From assembly GCA_028287545.1 (NCBI GenBank), contig JAQBPL010000130.1:1-5101 (forward strand): 5,101 nt of DNA. The letters are read 5' to 3'. The stretch's first letter is position 1. Every line of letters starts with the position of its first letter. Made by a program: the position numbers and the translations under genes. Of this stretch, positions 1 through 5,101 are shown one piece after another. The notes below the pieces were generated by a model that ran no database searches, was not told the DNA's origin, and saw only the letters and a program-made list of their open reading frames with translations. Source of the stretch: Vulcanimicrobiota bacterium. Lineage in GTDB: Bacteria > Eremiobacterota > Eremiobacteria > Baltobacterales > Baltobacteraceae.

Positions 1-69
1 GAGCGCGGGGCGGGCGTCGTGCTCGTCGCGCTCGCCGTCCTTTTCACGCTGCAGCATTTGGCACACTAG
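1..69 (+). CDS. 3' end of an unidentified gene, hydrophobic C-terminus
   Basis: Frame 1 is open from the left edge to a TAG at 67-69, giving 23 residues. They begin with a short charged stretch (E-R-G) followed by a hydrophobic run rich in Val, Leu and Ala, and end in Leu-Ala-His. This looks like the final transmembrane helix of a membrane protein whose body lies outside the window. The third codon positions are almost all G or C, as expected for coding DNA in a GC-rich genome. The family cannot be named from so little. The fragment could also be a chance open frame, because 23 codons without a stop is not rare at this GC content. Confidence 0.4.
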   Translation, partial: ERGAGVVLVALAVLFTLQHLAH

Positions 70-71
70 CA

Positions 72-99
72 GGCGCGCCACGGCTAGCCGCCCGGCGCC
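72..99. repeat. Nested GC-rich inverted repeats after the first gene
   Basis: GGCGC at 72-76 can pair with GCGCC at 95-99, and the interval holds the perfect 10-bp palindrome CGGCTAGCCG at 81-90. The structure starts three bases after the TAG of the upstream gene and is followed by AGTTT at 100-104. It could act as a transcription terminator for that gene, but the T-run is only three bases and short palindromes are common at this GC content. Function is a guess. Confidence 0.25.
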
Positions 100-176
100 A
101 GTTTGCGTCCGTCGCGTTACCGACCAAGACCGAACGCCAACGCGTCCGAGTCAATGAGGTACACTACAGGGGTCTA

Positions 177-977
177 GTGCCAGCCGCCGACACGGCACAC
201 GCGCGGCGACTACAAACCCCGGATCGACGGCTCGTGCGACCCCAAAAGGTCGATTTCATCGTGCAGACCGCAGACGCCGACAAAGCCTCCAAGCACTCGA
301 CCGTGATCTTTTGGTCCCTTCTTGCCTCTGCGCTACTCCATCTCTTCGCATGGGCCGGTCTCACGTGGTCCGGTCACCTTTCATTTTGGCGCAACGTCCA
401 GTTTGAACGGCCGCACGAGACGCTCATGGTTTCGTTGTCGTTGATCCGCATCGAGCGCCGCACCATTCCGCAGCCGCCAAAGCGCCCACGGCAGGCACGA
501 CGCATGGTAGCGGCGCCGCAAGGGCCCTCGCTCTCGCCACCGCAGCCGGCCGCGCTCTCTCTGCCGCCTGCCTGGGCGAAGCAAGATTTTGGTAATAAGG
601 CCGCGACTGACACCACGCTGTGGCTGGACTGGACGAAGCAAAGCGGCACTTTCGTACCTCGCGTCTTTCTATGGCAGATGAAAGCGGTAGCAGGTTACAT
701 GCGGGGACCGTCGCTGCAAGGCGCCGTTGGGGACGTACTTGCCTCGCTACGCGCTCGGGACGCCAAAGTGTACGTCAGCAAAGCGCAGCGAGTTTGCAGC
801 GGAAGACGTCTTGGGTGGTTCTTCTCGTACGCCAAGCCATCGGAGGATCGGCCTCTACACTACGATGAAACGCTTTTCATGGCAGGCGACACGATCTATA
901 GGGCAACATACATACGCCGCGAGGATCAACCCGAAGATACAAAAACCCGCGATGGGTTGAACACTTTGTGCCACTGA
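177..977 (+). CDS. TonB-like single-pass anchored protein, uncharacterised C-terminal domain
   Basis: The predicted protein has 266 residues. A basic N-terminal segment is followed by one membrane helix at about residues 42-64, then a short stretch resembling the TonB N-terminal region (His-Glu-Thr-Leu then Val-Ser-Leu, 80-87). A Pro/Arg-rich linker spans about 98-131. The C-terminal domain (about 135-266) contains Cys207 and Cys265, which could form a disulfide outside the cytoplasm. This gives an inner-membrane-anchored, periplasm-facing topology. No canonical TonB C-terminal domain is recognised, so a role in energy transduction is not claimed. The start is uncertain. GTG 177 has AGGGG at 168-172, only 4 nt away. 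GTG 261 (residue 29) has AAAAGG at 244-249, 11 nt away, and still leaves the helix intact. The gene is poorer in GC than its neighbours (about 52-58% in the lines 301-360 and 841-960, against about 70% in the transporter gene), which could mean a different origin or weaker codon selection. It appears to be transcribed alone. Confidence 0.7.
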   Translation: MPAADTAHARRLQTPDRRLVRPQKVDFIVQTADADKASKHSTVIFWSLLASALLHLFAWAGLTWSGHLSFWRNVQFERPHETLMVSLSLIRIERRTIPQPPKRPRQARRMVAAPQGPSLSPPQPAALSLPPAWAKQDFGNKAATDTTLWLDWTKQSGTFVPRVFLWQMKAVAGYMRGPSLQGAVGDVLASLRARDAKVYVSKAQRVCSGRRLGWFFSYAKPSEDRPLHYDETLFMAGDTIYRATYIRREDQPEDTKTRDGLNTLCH

Positions 978-1025
978 CCATCCCGCACGCAGTCTCACCG
1001 CACAAGCACGCCGGAAGCGCCGGCG

Positions 1026-1244
1026 TTGGCGGCTACGCTCGTCGCCCTCCCTACGCGGCACCCGGCGTTGGCAGACGCGCTCACCGGTCCGCCTGTGGGC
1101 GTTGCGGTGTGCCAAGCAACGAACTTCAAGGGCTGGGCTTCGCAGCGCTTCTTCCTCGGATACGAAAACCGCCAAGCGGTGCCCGCTGACCTCATCGGCA
1201 GCATCTGGGTAGAGCCGCGTCGGCAAGCCCGGCAGAGCAGCTGA
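1026..1244 (+). CDS. Doubtful small ORF, 72 aa, in the same frame as the preceding gene
   Basis: The 356-bp gap between the TonB-like gene and the regulator holds one open frame with coding-like features. It starts at TTG 1026 with GGAAG at 1013-1017 (8 nt spacing) and ends at TGA 1242-1244. By my count 56 of 72 sense codons end in G or C (about 78%), which fits a gene here. The frame is the same one as the TonB-like gene, and there is no stop from just after its TGA (975-977) to 1244, so it could also be a detached or decayed C-terminal extension. The protein has one Cys, no membrane helix and no domain I recognise. Overlapping minus-strand frames (855-1313 and 995-1294) look Arg-rich and less gene-like. 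It may simply be non-coding. Confidence 0.27.
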   Translation: MAATLVALPTRHPALADALTGPPVGVAVCQATNFKGWASQRFFLGYENRQAVPADLIGSIWVEPRRQARQSS

Positions 1245-1289
1245 GGTTTTGAGGCACGCACCGACGCCGCCCGGCGTGAAAACCTCCAG
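1241..1289. repeat. Nested inverted repeat before the regulator operon
   Basis: GAGGTTTT at 1243-1250 is perfectly complementary to AAAACCTC at 1279-1286. The pairing extends by CT 1241-1242 with AG 1288-1289 if C1287 is bulged. Inside, ACGCC 1264-1268 pairs with GGCGT 1273-1277 around a GCCC loop; an alternative inner pairing is CACGC 1255-1259 with GCGTG 1274-1278. It begins at the stop codon of the doubtful ORF. There is no T-run after the stem on either strand, so it is not a textbook intrinsic terminator. It may still end transcription from the left, or be a leader structure or protein-binding site for the operon that starts about 40 bp further on. Confidence 0.4.
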
Positions 1290-1310
1290 TCCATTGTAGG
1301 GGCCGACTCG

Positions 1311-1336
1311 CATATTCGCGAAAGTTCTTGAATATG
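1311..1336 (+). promoter_or_regulatory. Putative ArsR-family 12-2-12 operator over the regulator start codon
   Basis: The left half-site CATATTCGCGAA (1311-1322) and right half-site TTCTTGAATATG (1325-1336) are separated by 2 bp. The right half reads CATATTCAAGAA on the other strand, identical to the left at 10 of 12 positions, with the outer seven (CATATTC/GAATATG) perfect. The 12-2-12 inverted-repeat layout and AT-rich outer arms are the known operator form for ArsR/SmtB repressors. The site covers the possible TTG start (1328) and ends on the ATG start (1334-1336) of the ArsR-type gene. That placement suggests autorepression of the whole operon, by blocking polymerase or early elongation. 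CATATT at 1311-1316 could serve as a -10 element, but no good -35 is visible. The promoter itself is therefore unassigned. Confidence 0.65.
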
Positions 1337-2020
1337 GCGGTACGGGGTACGAGCCGAAGCCGGAAGCGACGCTTCAAGGACGAGCTCTATGCTGCCGTCG
1401 CGCGCGTCCCCGCCGCGCTAGCGAACGGTCACCGGCTCGAACTCCTCGACCTGCTCTCGCAACGGCCGCGCACGGTCCAGGACGTCGCCGCCGAGGCGGG
1501 CATCACGGTCGCGAACGCATCGCAGCATCTCCAGGTGCTTGCGCGGTGCGGATTGGTCGCGGTGGAGCGCCGCGGAACGTTCGCCCATTACCGCGCTGCT
1601 GGGCCGGCTGTGTATCGGCTGCTCGTCGAGCTGCGTGCCGTCGCGGAATCCGCGGATGCCTCCGTCGCGGATGCCGAGCAGGCATATTTCGGTCCGCGCG
1701 AGCCCGGAATACGGACCATTGACGAAGCGCGCGACGCGCTCGCGGACGCGCACACCGCCCTGCTCGACGCTCGTCCCCGCGCGGAGTACGAAGCCGCGCA
1801 TCTCCCCGGCGCGATCAGCGCGCCGCTTGACGCTCTGCGATCCGGCAAGGTCGCCCTGCCTCGCTCGAAGCGATACGTCGTCTATTGCCGTGGACCGTAC
1901 TGCGTCTTCGCAGACGAGGCGGTCGCGCTGCTGCGCGAACGCGGCCTCGAGGCCAGTCGCCTTTCGCTCGGCCCGGCGGAATGGGTCGCCGCCGGCGGCG
2001 ACGTGCAGCGTGTCGGCTGA
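1334..2020 (+). CDS. ArsR-type HTH regulator fused to a rhodanese domain
   Basis: The 228-residue protein has a basic N-terminus (about 1-15) and a winged helix-turn-helix of the ArsR type at about 18-105. The recognition-helix region (about 58-69) includes Ser63-Gln-His-Leu-Gln, then Cys72-Gly-Leu-Val and the beta-wing (about 76-87). A rhodanese-like domain follows at about 127-227: Leu-Leu-Asp-Ala-Arg at 143-147, Glu-Tyr-Glu-Ala-Ala-His-Leu-Pro-Gly-Ala at 151-160, and the active-site loop Cys185-Arg-Gly-Pro-Tyr-Cys190. The metal-sensing Cys-Val-Cys motif of classical ArsR proteins is absent. The fusion therefore probably represses the operon until Cys185, perhaps with Cys190 or Cys72, is modified by persulfide or another thiol-reactive ligand; that mechanism is inferred. 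The start chosen is ATG 1334, with GAAAG at 1320-1324 (9 nt spacing); TTG 1328 would add two residues. The stop overlaps the transporter start by 11 bp, indicating co-transcription and translational coupling. Family assignment is firm, the ligand is not. Confidence 0.93.
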   Translation: MAVRGTSRSRKRRFKDELYAAVARVPAALANGHRLELLDLLSQRPRTVQDVAAEAGITVANASQHLQVLARCGLVAVERRGTFAHYRAAGPAVYRLLVELRAVAESADASVADAEQAYFGPREPGIRTIDEARDALADAHTALLDARPRAEYEAAHLPGAISAPLDALRSGKVALPRSKRYVVYCRGPYCVFADEAVALLRERGLEASRLSLGPAEWVAAGGDVQRVG

Positions 2021-3290
2021 GGGGGCGGGCCCCGTTCGGCTCGGGCTTGCGGCGAACGCAACGCAATTCTGGCTGCTCGTCGCAGTGAACGCGTTCGTCG
2101 GCTCGATGGTCGGCATCGAGCGCGACGTGCTGCCGCTGGTTGGCCAGCGCGTTTTCGGCCTCGCGTCCGAAACGGCGGTCCTCTCCTTCATCGTCATGTT
2201 CGGGTTCACGAAGGCGCTCGCGAACTTGTACGCGGGCCGGACCGCGGACCGGCTGGGCCGCAAGCCGCTGCTCGTCGCCGGATGGCTCTTCGCGATCCCG
2301 GTTCCGTTCTTGCTGATGTACGCGCCGGCGTGGGGTTGGATCGTCTTCGCGAACGTCTTACTCGGGATCAACCAGGGCCTGTGCTGGTCGATGACGGTCG
2401 TGATGAAAATCGACTTGGTCGGCCCCAAAGCGCGCGGCCTTGCGATGGGCCTCAACGAGTTCGCCGGTTATCTCGCCGTCGGCGTCGCAGCGTACCTCTC
2501 CGGCGTGATCGCTGCGGCGTACGGATTGCGACCGTGGCCGTTCGCTCTGGGCGTCGTCTCAGTATTCGTCGCGCTGGCGCTCTCGGTGTTCTTCGTGCGC
2601 GAGACGCACGGGCACGCGCGCTTCGAGGCCTCGAGCGGCGAGCCGGTCAACCAAGCTGCGGGATCGTCGTTCGCTGCGCTGTTCGCGCGCGTCTCCTGGA
2701 AAGACCGCACCCTCTCCTCCATCAGCCAGGCGGGACTCGTGAACAACCTCAACGACGGCCTGGCCTGGGGACTGCTGCCGTTGCACTTCGCCGCCGCCGG
2801 TCTCGCGATCGAGCGCATCGCGATCCTCTCGGCCGTCTATCCGGTGACGTGGGGAGTTTTCCAACTTCTCACGGGCGCACTGTCGGACCGCGTCGGCCGC
2901 AAATGGATGATCGCCGGCGGCATGTGGGTGCAGGCGGTCTCGATTGCGGTCTTCCTTGTCCCGGTGAATTTCGCGCTGTGGTTCGCCGCGGCCGTGCTGC
3001 TCGGCGTCGGGACGGCCATGGTGTACCCGACCCTCCTCGCCGCGATCGGCGACGTCGTCGATCCGCTGGTGCGCGCGTCCTCCGTCGGGGTGTACCGGTT
3101 GTGGCGAGACTCCGGCTACGCGTTCGGCGCGCTGATCTCCGGGATCGTCGCTCACCAGCTGGGTCAGGACGCCGCGATCGCGGTCGTCGCCGCGCTCACG
3201 CTCGGCTCGGGCGGGATCGTCGCCGTGCGCATGCGGGAGACGCTTTGGTACTCTCGCCGCGCGCTTTCGACCAGAGGTGCATCGCTATGA
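2010..3290 (+). CDS. Major facilitator superfamily (MFS) transporter
   Basis: The 426-residue protein has about 12 hydrophobic helices in two halves, joined by a polar central loop (about 196-230, around the Arg-Glu-Thr-His-Gly segment). The MFS motif A appears twice: GRTADRLGRK at residues 76-85 between helices 2 and 3, and GALSDRVGRK at 289-298 between helices 8 and 9. The first helix carries the charged group Glu37-Arg38-Asp39, and helix 5 contains Asn149-Glu150; these may line the substrate path. Length and helix count are normal for MFS. The substrate cannot be read from the sequence. Lying between a rhodanese-fused ArsR regulator and a persulfide-dioxygenase-like enzyme, it may move a sulfur compound, an oxyanion or a toxic thiophile. 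GTG 2010 is chosen because it leaves nine residues before Arg10 and puts the first helix at about residue 20. The same frame stays open upstream to 1539, but that part only shadows the regulator gene. GTG 2010 lies inside the regulator gene, and the stop TGA (3288-3290) overlaps the next ATG. Confidence 0.92.
   Translation: MSAEGAGPVRLGLAANATQFWLLVAVNAFVGSMVGIERDVLPLVGQRVFGLASETAVLSFIVMFGFTKALANLYAGRTADRLGRKPLLVAGWLFAIPVPFLLMYAPAWGWIVFANVLLGINQGLCWSMTVVMKIDLVGPKARGLAMGLNEFAGYLAVGVAAYLSGVIAAAYGLRPWPFALGVVSVFVALALSVFFVRETHGHARFEASSGEPVNQAAGSSFAALFARVSWKDRTLSSISQAGLVNNLNDGLAWGLLPLHFAAAGLAIERIAILSAVYPVTWGVFQLLTGALSDRVGRKWMIAGGMWVQAVSIAVFLVPVNFALWFAAAVLLGVGTAMVYPTLLAAIGDVVDPLVRASSVGVYRLWRDSGYAFGALISGIVAHQLGQDAAIAVVAALTLGSGGIVAVRMRETLWYSRRALSTRGASL
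3273..3279 (+). promoter_or_regulatory. Strong ribosome-binding site that fixes the MBL gene start
   Basis: AGAGGTG at 3273-3279 contains the Shine-Dalgarno core GAGG (3274-3277), 9 nt before ATG 3287. With the ATGA overlap at 3287-3290 this makes 3287 a convincing start for the hydrolase. It matters because the frame from this start meets a TGA at codon 20, so the TGA lies inside the gene rather than upstream of it. Confidence 0.75.
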
Positions 3291-4030
3291 TCTTTCGACA
3301 GATCCTTCGAGCCGAGACCGGCTGCGCATCCTACGTCTTCGGTTGAAGCGGCCAAGGCCGCGCAGCGGTCGTCGATCCTCAGTTCGAGGTCGCTCAATAC
3401 GTGGAAATCGCGAACCGCTACGGCATGCGGATCGAAGCGGTGTTCTCGACCCACGTTCATGCTGACCATCGCTCCGGTGAACGTGAACTCGCGGCCTTGG
3501 CCGGCGCCGCGAACTACCATCATCGTTCCGCTGAGCTGGAATATGCGTTCACGCCACTCGACGACGGCGCGGAGATATCCCTCGGCAACGTCGTCGTTCG
3601 CGCGCTCCACACGCCGGGACACACGCCGGAGAGCCTTTCGTTCCTCGTCACCGATCGCACGCGATCCGACGAGCCGTGGATGGTTCTTTCCGGCGACACG
3701 CTCTTCGTCGGCGACGTCGGAAGGCCCGATTTCGGCGGCGATGATGCCGGACGCCAGTTGCATGCTTCCCTGCAACGGCTCCTCGCGCTCCCGGACTATG
3801 TGGAGGTCTACCCGGCCCACATATCGGGAAGTCCGTGCGGACGTGCGATGAGCGGCAAACCCTCCTCGACGATCGGGTTCGAGCGCCGCCACAATGGCGC
3901 GCTTGCGCACGCCGACCCAGACACGTTCGTCGCCGCACTCTTCGAAGGGCTGACTCCCAAGCCGCCCGGCTTCCTGGAAATGATCGCAACGAATCGCCAT
4001 GGCGGCGAGGCAAGGACGCGGGGCGTTTGA
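3287..4030 (+). CDS. MBL-fold persulfide dioxygenase-like hydrolase with an in-frame UGA at codon 20
   Basis: Counting codon 20 as an amino acid, the protein has 247 residues. The first 19 (MIFRQILRAETGCASYVFG) match the typical start of ETHE1-like MBL proteins. After the TGA (3344-3346) the frame continues with Ala-Ala-Val-Val-Asp-Pro, then His56-Val-His58-Ala-Asp60-His61 (the HxHxDH metal motif). His112 (HTPGHTPE), Asp137 (SGDTLFVGD) and His178 (YPAHISGS) supply further ligands, and the C-terminal CGRAMSGKPSSTIGFERR signature is present. Enzymes of this group use a mononuclear iron to oxidise glutathione persulfide to sulfite in the cytoplasm; activity here is inferred. Length is normal for the family if the TGA is read through. 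The gene overlaps the transporter stop as ATGA. If UGA is not decoded the gene is a pseudogene, or a shortened protein starts at GTG 3401 (GAGG 11 nt upstream), which keeps HxHxDH but loses the first beta strands. TGA also ends the neighbouring genes, so UGA is not a general sense codon. Confidence 0.82.
3344..3346 (+). other. In-frame UGA: candidate selenocysteine codon or nonsense mutation
   Basis: The TGA follows Gly19 and precedes Ser-Gly-Gln-Gly of the MBL hydrolase. From memory, several relatives have Cys at this point in a Tyr-Leu-Phe-Gly-Cys context, and ETHE1 has Asp. A UGA aligned with Cys in homologues is the usual hallmark of a bacterial selenoprotein, and TGC or TGT to TGA is also a one-base nonsense change. 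The two readings cannot be separated from this window alone. Confidence 0.4.
3348..3389 (+). promoter_or_regulatory. Candidate SECIS-like hairpins downstream of the in-frame UGA
   Basis: GGCCGC 3356-3361 pairs with GCGGTC 3365-3370 (6 bp, one G-U) around loop GCA; the loop starts with G and lies 15 nt after the UGA. CCTC 3377-3380 pairs with GAGG 3386-3389 around loop AGTTC, with G in the second loop position and 34 nt from the UGA. Bacterial SECIS elements usually have a small apical loop with G in its first two positions about 16-37 nt from the UGA, so both are borderline fits. A third hairpin, GCGGC 3348-3352 with GCCGC 3357-3361 (loop CCAAG minus one pair, or a 6-bp stem with a 2-nt loop), competes with the first. 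Such stems arise easily in GC-rich DNA. Confidence 0.22.
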
Positions 4031-4037
4031 TACTCGG

Positions 4038-5101
4038 TTAGTGGCGCAACGCGACGCCCAGAACCGCGCCCAGCCCGACGTATGCCTGATCGGGGATTCG
4101 CTTAGCGAGGAACGGTGCGGCTAGGACCACGAGGAGAAGCGCGGCGGTGAAGCCGTCGACGATGATCGGACGACCGATCAGATACGTCGTCCCGGCAAGG
4201 ACGCCGACGACCGCGACCGTCACGCCGCGCACGAACCCCGCGACGCGCGGATGTCCGCCGTAGCGCAGCAGCAGCGGCGTCGCGACCACGGTGAGGATGA
4301 TCGAGGGCAGAAAGATGCCGAGCGTCGCGGCCAGCGCGCCGGCGAAGCCGGCCACCGCGTAGCCGACGAACGTCGCCGTGATGACGACCGGTCCGGGCGA
4401 GATCATGCCGATCGCGACGGCGTCGACGAAGGTCCGGTTGTCCAGCCAATGATACTGGTCGACGACGTACGTTTTCACGAACGACACGACGACCAGCCCG
4501 CTGCCGAAGACCAGAAATCCCGTTTTGAAAAAGAACCAGAACAGCGCCGGAGCGAGCCCCGCCGACGGCGGTACGATCGCGCCGAGCAACGCCGGTACAC
4601 CGACGGCGTGCATCTTCGGCGCGACCGGCGCGACGGGCGCAGCCGGAACCAACTTTGCTCGGGGCGCGAACGCAAAGATGCCCAGGACCCCCGCGGCCAG
4701 GAACAGCCAGACCAGCTCCTCTTTCAATGCGATGGTCACCGCGCAGGCGACGATTGCAACCGCCCACGCGGCGTAATCGCGCTTGAGGGTCTTGCGGCCA
4801 AGGTTCCAGCTCGCGCGCAAAATCAGCGCGACGACGACCGGGCCGATGCCGTAAAAGAGGCCGCGGGTGATGCCCGCACCGGCGAACCGTTCGTAGAACG
4901 CGGCGATCGTGACGACGATGGCGAACGGCGGGAGCGCGAACGCGACGGCCACTGCAAGCGCGCCCGGTATGCCGTGCGTAACGTAACCGCAGTACACGCC
5001 GAGCTGATAGGCCATCGGGCCGGGGCACGCCGTCGCGATGGCGAGCCCGCGCTCGTACGACGCCTCGTCGATCCAACCGCGCTTCTCGACGAGATCCCGG
5101 C
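4038..5101 (-). CDS. chrA: Chromate efflux transporter ChrA, N-terminus beyond the right edge
   Basis: The minus-strand frame is open from the window edge to TAA at 4038-4040, giving 353 residues. It holds both halves of a long-chain CHR protein. The first half contains Arg-Gly-Trp-Ile-Asp-Glu-Ala (visible residues 7-13) and Ala-Cys-Pro-Gly-Pro-Met-Ala-Tyr-Gln-Leu-Gly (24-34). An Ala/Pro-rich linker lies at about 146-167. The second half has a Phe-Lys-Thr-Gly segment, FGSG at about 198-201, Trp-Leu-Asp at about 218-220, and ISPGPVVIT at about 233-241, followed by the FLPS stretch at about 263-266. ChrA is an inner-membrane protein that exports chromate. The Met at 5013-5015 is not the start, since the conserved CPGP motif lies upstream of it. 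About 30 residues, including the usual FGGP motif, should lie beyond the edge. The gene converges on the hydrolase with 7 bp between stops. No ChrB or other chromate gene is visible, so real function in chromate resistance is inferred from family. Confidence 0.9.
   Translation of the reverse strand, partial: RDLVEKRGWIDEASYERGLAIATACPGPMAYQLGVYCGYVTHGIPGALAVAVAFALPPFAIVVTIAAFYERFAGAGITRGLFYGIGPVVVALILRASWNLGRKTLKRDYAAWAVAIVACAVTIALKEELVWLFLAAGVLGIFAFAPRAKLVPAAPVAPVAPKMHAVGVPALLGAIVPPSAGLAPALFWFFFKTGFLVFGSGLVVVSFVKTYVVDQYHWLDNRTFVDAVAIGMISPGPVVITATFVGYAVAGFAGALAATLGIFLPSIILTVVATPLLLRYGGHPRVAGFVRGVTVAVVGVLAGTTYLIGRPIIVDGFTAALLLVVLAAPFLAKRIPDQAYVGLGAVLGVALRH

Follow-up and report, generated by a model that had tools for sequence, protein, structure and literature searches.

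Does the in-frame UGA near the start of a metallo-beta-lactamase (MBL)-fold gene in a Vulcanimicrobiota bacterium (phylum Eremiobacterota) stop translation, or is it read as selenocysteine (Sec)? The gene lies on contig JAQBPL010000130.1 of assembly GCA_028287545.1, in a stretch of 5,101 nucleotides (positions 1 to 5,101) that we call the window, and UGA is its twentieth codon. Judging from sequence comparison, we hold it to be almost certain that the gene encodes a selenoprotein with Sec inserted at this codon. The combined claim, that Sec is inserted and that the product is an MBL-fold enzyme of thiol or sulfur chemistry, we make with high confidence, and a specific role in sulfane-sulfur metabolism appears reasonably likely from the same kind of data. 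The parts of the gene to which the argument refers are the following.

3287..4030, forward strand: predicted gene of an MBL-fold selenoprotein of 247 residues, the twentieth being Sec (frame with the TGA translated as a residue)
3344..3346, forward strand: UGA codon 20, predicted Sec (UGA in close Eremiobacterota homologues, Cys in full-length neighbours)
3452..3469, forward strand: HVHADH metal-binding motif (HxHxDH), residues 56-61, from translation and alignment
3836..3838, forward strand: codon of Cys184, the column in which relatives from the Sulfobacillus class, Nitrospinota and Chloroflexota have UGA
4028..4030, forward strand: terminal stop TGA of the MBL gene

The start codon at 3287 overlaps the stop codon of an upstream major facilitator superfamily (MFS) gene in the sequence ATGA (the MFS frame ends at 3290), and AGAGGTG stands just upstream. 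These features confirm the start that an initial annotation of the DNA had proposed from a ribosome binding site and ATGA coupling. The frame reads MIFRQILRAETGCASYVFG-U-SGQGRAAVVDPQ and continues to the terminal TGA. Translation also bears out the 227 sense codons claimed after the TGA at 3344-3346 (frame 3287-4030, TGA read as a residue) and the intact metal motifs, namely HxHxDH at residues 56-61, H112 and D137. The same annotation had regarded genome-wide recoding of UGA as excluded. Since the MFS gene and the MBL gene both end in TGA, we consider such a reassignment unlikely, which is a weaker verdict.

The codon-20 column is occupied by Cys in 3tp9 and 3r2u, the nearest solved proteins by sequence. 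Among 120 matches listed from the protein database, all ten full-length near homologues carry Cys20, placed after Gly, in agreement with the expectation of a homologous Cys at the UGA column. A scan of genome contigs provided 57 loci. TGA stands at codon 20 in all seven of them from Eremiobacterota/WPS-2 and in five from Bacillota, one of them Sulfobacillus harzensis; the remaining loci contain Cys, Ser, Asp or a gap at this position, or do not reach it. We also surveyed 149 Eremiobacterota genomes, 147 of which give some match among the matches listed. The 14 best-matching genomes (at least 248 bits) all have TGA at codon 20, so that the suggestion to look for UGA in close relatives was borne out. 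Sixteen further loci from this phylum (L147-L162) have no internal stop and show Cys, Ser, Asp or a gap at codon 20. Among the matches listed, a few weak ones of at most 92 bits include an internal stop. Shared by 7/7 Eremiobacterota/WPS-2 loci and by 14 genomes of the phylum, UGA20 is beyond chance.

UGA is a stop in the standard code, and a nonsense mutation that ends translation and leaves the remainder of the gene to drift would explain the codon in a single sequence. The initial annotation had kept a very recent break of the gene as its alternative. This pseudogene explanation is extremely improbable, as the same UGA occurs in 14 genomes whose homologues share 66-90% identity (two of them about 52%). 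The ratio of nonsynonymous to synonymous substitution rates (dN/dS) between the window gene and its relative L001 is 0.29 over codons 1-19, a value based on four changes only, and 0.14 over codons 40-230; seven further relatives give 0.10-0.17 for codons 40-230. We reject the recent break because purifying selection acts on the frame before as well as after the UGA.

Homologues from the Sulfobacillus class have another in-frame TGA where the window gene codes for Cys184. TGA interrupts this gene in 16 of 154 genomes of the class (18 matches). Fourteen distinct genes code for Sec at both positions 20 and 184 (Sec/Sec), three combine Cys20 with Sec184 (two copies in G260, one in G262), and one gene in G271 (L171) carries UGA20 and terminates short of residue 184. 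The forms in G265 and G266 are Cys/Cys. Cys20/Sec184 also occurs in Nitrospinota (L010) and Chloroflexota (L033 and L039); TGA-bearing genes turned up in one Nitrospinota genome out of 18 and in one of the 400 Chloroflexota genomes sampled. Across the relatives, positions 20 and 184 are thus found as U/C, C/U, U/U and C/C. A tree of 97 rows requires two changes at residue 184 and 11 at residue 20 with all states counted; this was a quick tree from a short search, with long branches flagged and ten repeated or short loci listed for exclusion beforehand. In one U/C gene (L006, near 6441) the frame shifts near residue 147, either by a real break or by a sequencing error.

Database annotation implies a different start for most of the family. 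In 110 of the 120 listed proteins (P0002-P0121) the sequence begins after residue 20, 80 times at residue 47, as if translation restarted at Met47 and the UGA were merely the stop of a leader. This model is very unlikely to be correct: residues 1-46 are conserved and contain three strands of the modelled fold, the ten full-length neighbours read through the position with Cys, and a downstream restart cannot explain the relatives with UGA184. Some of the 110 late-starting proteins may be truncated by contig ends, and as a group they are likely mis-annotated selenoproteins that lack their N-terminus. As most near database entries start after the UGA, the family is probably annotated as N-terminally cut proteins.

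If Sec is inserted at codon 20, the message should contain a selenocysteine insertion sequence (SECIS) downstream of it. A candidate was found in this region:

3356..3391, forward strand: putative SECIS region (synonymous conservation, near-invariant alignment block; hairpin energy not discriminating)

For 13 Eremiobacterota genes (L145 and L146 excluded), synonymous codon identity is 0.83 over codons 21-37 versus 0.52 over the 180 scored codons, and none of 20000 random column sets reached as high a value. Codons 11-20 are also raised (0.69). That synonymous conservation peaks right after the UGA is a further argument against a drifting pseudogene. In the Sulfobacillus class (15 genes), synonymous identity around UGA20 is 0.52 versus 0.41 gene-wide (p 0.004, random columns). 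The conserved Eremiobacterota block contains GAUCCUCAGUUCGAGGUC, a bulged-U hairpin with four pairs and GU in the loop, which strikes us as reminiscent of the element in E. coli fdhF. In the window, a hairpin at 3374-3391 (GAUCCUC-AGUUC-GAGGUC) has a bulged U and places its loop G 36 nt after UGA20. The SECIS model in a recent review has G within the first two loop positions and a distance of 16-37 nt to the loop (PMC13188914).

The stems in the relatives were counted after removal of eight loci that repeat others, which were also left out of the metal-ligand counts. After UGA184, a 7-bp stem (GUGGAAA/UUUCCAC) is complete in 14/14 Sec/Sec and in three of six Cys/Sec sequences, and the other three complete a 5-bp stem with the 3' arm one codon earlier. 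A complete hairpin therefore follows UGA184 in 20/20 sequences, and either stem is complete in 0/79 sequences with Cys184, although the counted stems were defined from the U-bearing sequences, which favours them. The loop G is absent in L177. All 14 genes of the Sulfobacillus class with UGA20 that were counted complete the inner stem AGUGG/CCACU downstream of it; the Cys20 relatives L174, L178 and L219 retain two, three and four of its five pairs, respectively. Eremiobacterota, L146 excepted, lack this geometry. Hairpin free energy was tried as a SECIS test and discarded: depending on the gene, a fraction of 0.00-0.56 of 25 control codons was at least as stable as UGA20.

We then ask whether the genomes with UGA-bearing genes encode the machinery for Sec insertion. 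tRNA-Sec was counted only at E 1e-10 or better or when confirmed by ARAGORN, because several matches to RF01852 near the cut-off were identified by ARAGORN as tRNA-Ser, tRNA-Trp or tRNA-Cys. At least one of tRNA-Sec and SelB is present in 31 of 33 UGA-bearing genomes; of the remaining two, one has an assembly from which the entire locus is absent and the other carries an apparent selA-selB deletion scar. The Eremiobacterota with the UGA gene contain tRNA-Sec in 9/14 cases, SelB over cut-off in 11/14 and either in 12/14; in the Sulfobacillus class the numbers are 16/16 for SelB and 14/16 for tRNA-Sec (not G276 and G278), and the Cys20/Sec184 genomes G016, G310 and G311 all have both. SelA, which was sought in 20 genomes only, exceeds the cut-off in 9 of 12 genomes with U20. 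ARAGORN assigned tRNA-Sec with anticodon TCA in 15 of 25 submitted loci. Among seven searched genomes without Sec in the MBL gene, G013 and G015 show no confirmed tRNA-Sec and no SelA or SelB over cut-off; G014, G017, G018, G019 and G020 contain some or all of the three.

Could a suppressor tRNA or a SelB-dependent tRNA-Cys read the UGA instead, so that Cys or Trp is incorporated? Cys in the column of the homologues would fit this idea, as would a tRNA-Cys of G008 (L079, on contig C290) that resembles tRNA-Sec with 57 bits on RF01852. This tRNA has the anticodon GCA and would not read UGA. The U-bearing genomes tested with ARAGORN contain strong tRNA-Sec genes with anticodon TCA, and selA accompanies most of the searched U20 genes. 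We therefore regard alternative recoding as highly unlikely. Second matches of 58-59 bits to the tRNA-Sec model were also seen in G259 and G271.

Several observations weigh against Sec insertion at codon 20. A second hairpin at 3356-3370 competes with that at 3374-3391, which leaves two SECIS candidates in the window, and the energies of the UGA20 hairpins resemble what other codons in these genes give; the definition of the counted stems mentioned above belongs here as well. The evidence for Sec genes comes from the genomes of relatives, not from that of the window, and since the base rate in Eremiobacterota is high (tRNA-Sec in 100/149 genomes, SelB over cut-off in 113/149), co-occurrence within this phylum says little. 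Finally, G005 has the UGA gene and no tRNA-Sec, SelA or SelB over cut-off.

In G005, genes for gyrA, thioredoxin and a C-terminal piece of SelB are close together on one contig. At this place (L216, G005:C141:35500-40500) the thioredoxin gene is directly followed by the SelB piece, where G002 and G003 have selA and a full selB in between. It looks from this arrangement as though selA and most of selB have been deleted in G005. In its MBL gene, ligand position 112 is Tyr, which together with the apparent deletion is a point in favour of a pseudogene, and position 58 is Gln; the latter also occurs in L004, whose genome has Sec genes. The dN/dS of the G005 gene versus L004 is still 0.11, and so the deletion would be recent or an assembly fault. 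For the gyrA-trx-selA-selB stretch, all matches in G007 are short and look like chance, and the whole locus including gyrA is missing from this assembly. In G006, selA runs into the contig end.

After establishing how UGA20 is most probably read, we turned to the question as to what this selenoprotein may do. The only domain found in the 247-residue window protein is PF00753, with no C-terminal rhodanese domains. In fold it comes nearest to the MBL part of the CstB-type MBL-rhodanese proteins from Staphylococcus aureus (3r2u) and Alicyclobacillus acidocaldarius (3tp9); unlike these Cys20 proteins, it carries predicted Sec20 and has no rhodanese part of its own. ETHE1-type persulfide dioxygenases (4chl, 4ysb, 5ve3, 8zbd, 9g8t) are less similar, with about 25-32% identity. 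By modelled fold, then, the description as persulfide-dioxygenase-like in the initial annotation appears right. We take H56, H112 and D137 to be the ligands of a 2-His-1-carboxylate metal site; in 14 U/C rows, H112 is present in 13 and D137 in all. The Sec forms of the Sulfobacillus class (L012, L016, L018, L019, L022, L164-L178) have His instead of Asp in column 137, from which a three-His metal site is predicted.

The genes on either side of the MBL gene bear on its function as well.

1334..2020, forward strand: ArsR-family regulator fused to a rhodanese domain (PF01022, PF00581; NF033788 over cut-off)
2010..3290, forward strand: MFS transporter gene overlapping the start of the MBL gene (PF07690)
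4038..5099, reverse strand: ChrA-type chromate transporter gene, convergent, running off the window (TIGR00937 over cut-off)

The order is thus ArsR-rhodanese, MFS and MBL, with the ChrA-type gene converging from the other side and probably outside the unit of the MBL gene. The MFS gene is directly upstream in 7/8 Eremiobacterota loci (not called in L224); the ArsR-rhodanese gene was called in 3/8, by a simple caller that hides overlapped genes. The Sulfobacillus-class loci L012, L016, L018 and L022 include a called ArsR-rhodanese gene in three cases and an MFS gene in two, and the Cys form of Calidithermus (L009) follows an ArsR-rhodanese gene. In the Cys20/Sec184 locus of Chloroflexota (L033:1125-8689) the MBL domain is fused to rhodanese domains and located among genes for NrfD/FeS proteins, a molybdopterin oxidoreductase and YeeE/YedE. 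BigR/Blh sulfide operons likewise place an ArsR-family regulator beside an MBL-fold sulfur enzyme, according to the accessible part of PMC5823870. They differ from the window in that the regulator here is fused to rhodanese and either scores below the BigR cut-off or is unlisted, and the MBL protein is below the cut-off for Blh (NF040641, 57.1 bits; cut-off 625).

The CstB-like fold and the rhodanese-containing neighbours make a sulfane-sulfur role likely, as far as sequences can tell. The protein could also be a selenoenzyme of another kind, such as a glyoxalase II-type metal-dependent hydrolase or some other detoxifier. The MBL fold itself is compatible with this function, the best NCBIfam match is GloB (TIGR03413, 83.9 bits, below its cut-off of 200.8), and neither the MFS nor the ChrA neighbour points to sulfur by name; given the evidence for the sulfur role, we consider a hydrolase or other detoxifier the rather unlikely option.

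For the sulfane-sulfur enzyme we propose the following mechanism. SelB and tRNA-Sec would insert Sec at UGA20, directed by an RNA element in the approximately 45 nt downstream. The product would be an MBL-fold enzyme that stands alone and is akin to the MBL portion of CstB-type persulfide dioxygenase-sulfurtransferases. Sec20 and Cys184 may work together as a chalcogen pair, which either accepts sulfane sulfur or forms a selenenylsulfide, and which hands a persulfide to the metal site or protects this site. The ArsR-rhodanese protein might sense reactive sulfur, and the MFS protein might export a product such as sulfite or thiosulfate. More tentatively, residues 20 and 184 could form one redox or sulfur-relay couple, built as Sec-Cys, Cys-Sec, Sec-Sec (possibly a diselenide) or Cys-Cys, which feeds the metal site (three-His in the Sulfobacillus class), with the Sec-Sec gene relying on two separate SECIS elements; this would define a new selenoenzyme class with an MBL fold. 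The natural permutation of Sec and Cys at two positions allows one to test directly why a persulfide-handling enzyme would use selenium, and it hints at a functional link between the two matching cysteines of CstB-type enzymes.

As far as the literature was searched, the metallo-beta-lactamase superfamily would gain its first selenoprotein with this protein. Besides Eremiobacterota, the family occurs in the Sulfobacillus class, Nitrospinota and Chloroflexota, where Sec occupies one site or both. It resembles known bacterial selenoprotein families in that UGA occupies a Cys column, Cys homologues exist, a candidate hairpin follows and selA, selB and selC occur in genomes of relatives. None of the 119 families and subfamilies in Table 1 of a 2026 review is MBL-fold or PF00753 (PMC13188914); the nearest in theme in that table are rhodanese forms, YeeE/YedE and a sulfide:quinone reductase subtype. 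The terms "lactamase" and "hydrolase" are absent from the accessible parts of PMC9312934 and PMC12013277. Our literature search, whose coverage excluded subscription papers and preprints, found no MBL-fold or persulfide dioxygenase selenoprotein, and at E 0.001 P0001 gave no match to any NCBIfam model of a selenoprotein.

Elsewhere in the window, ARAGORN found no tRNA, and two Rfam matches below their gathering scores were taken as chance. An open frame of 266 residues at 177-977 has no Pfam match; it codes for a membrane stretch with a Pro-rich part behind it and looks TonB-like by eye.
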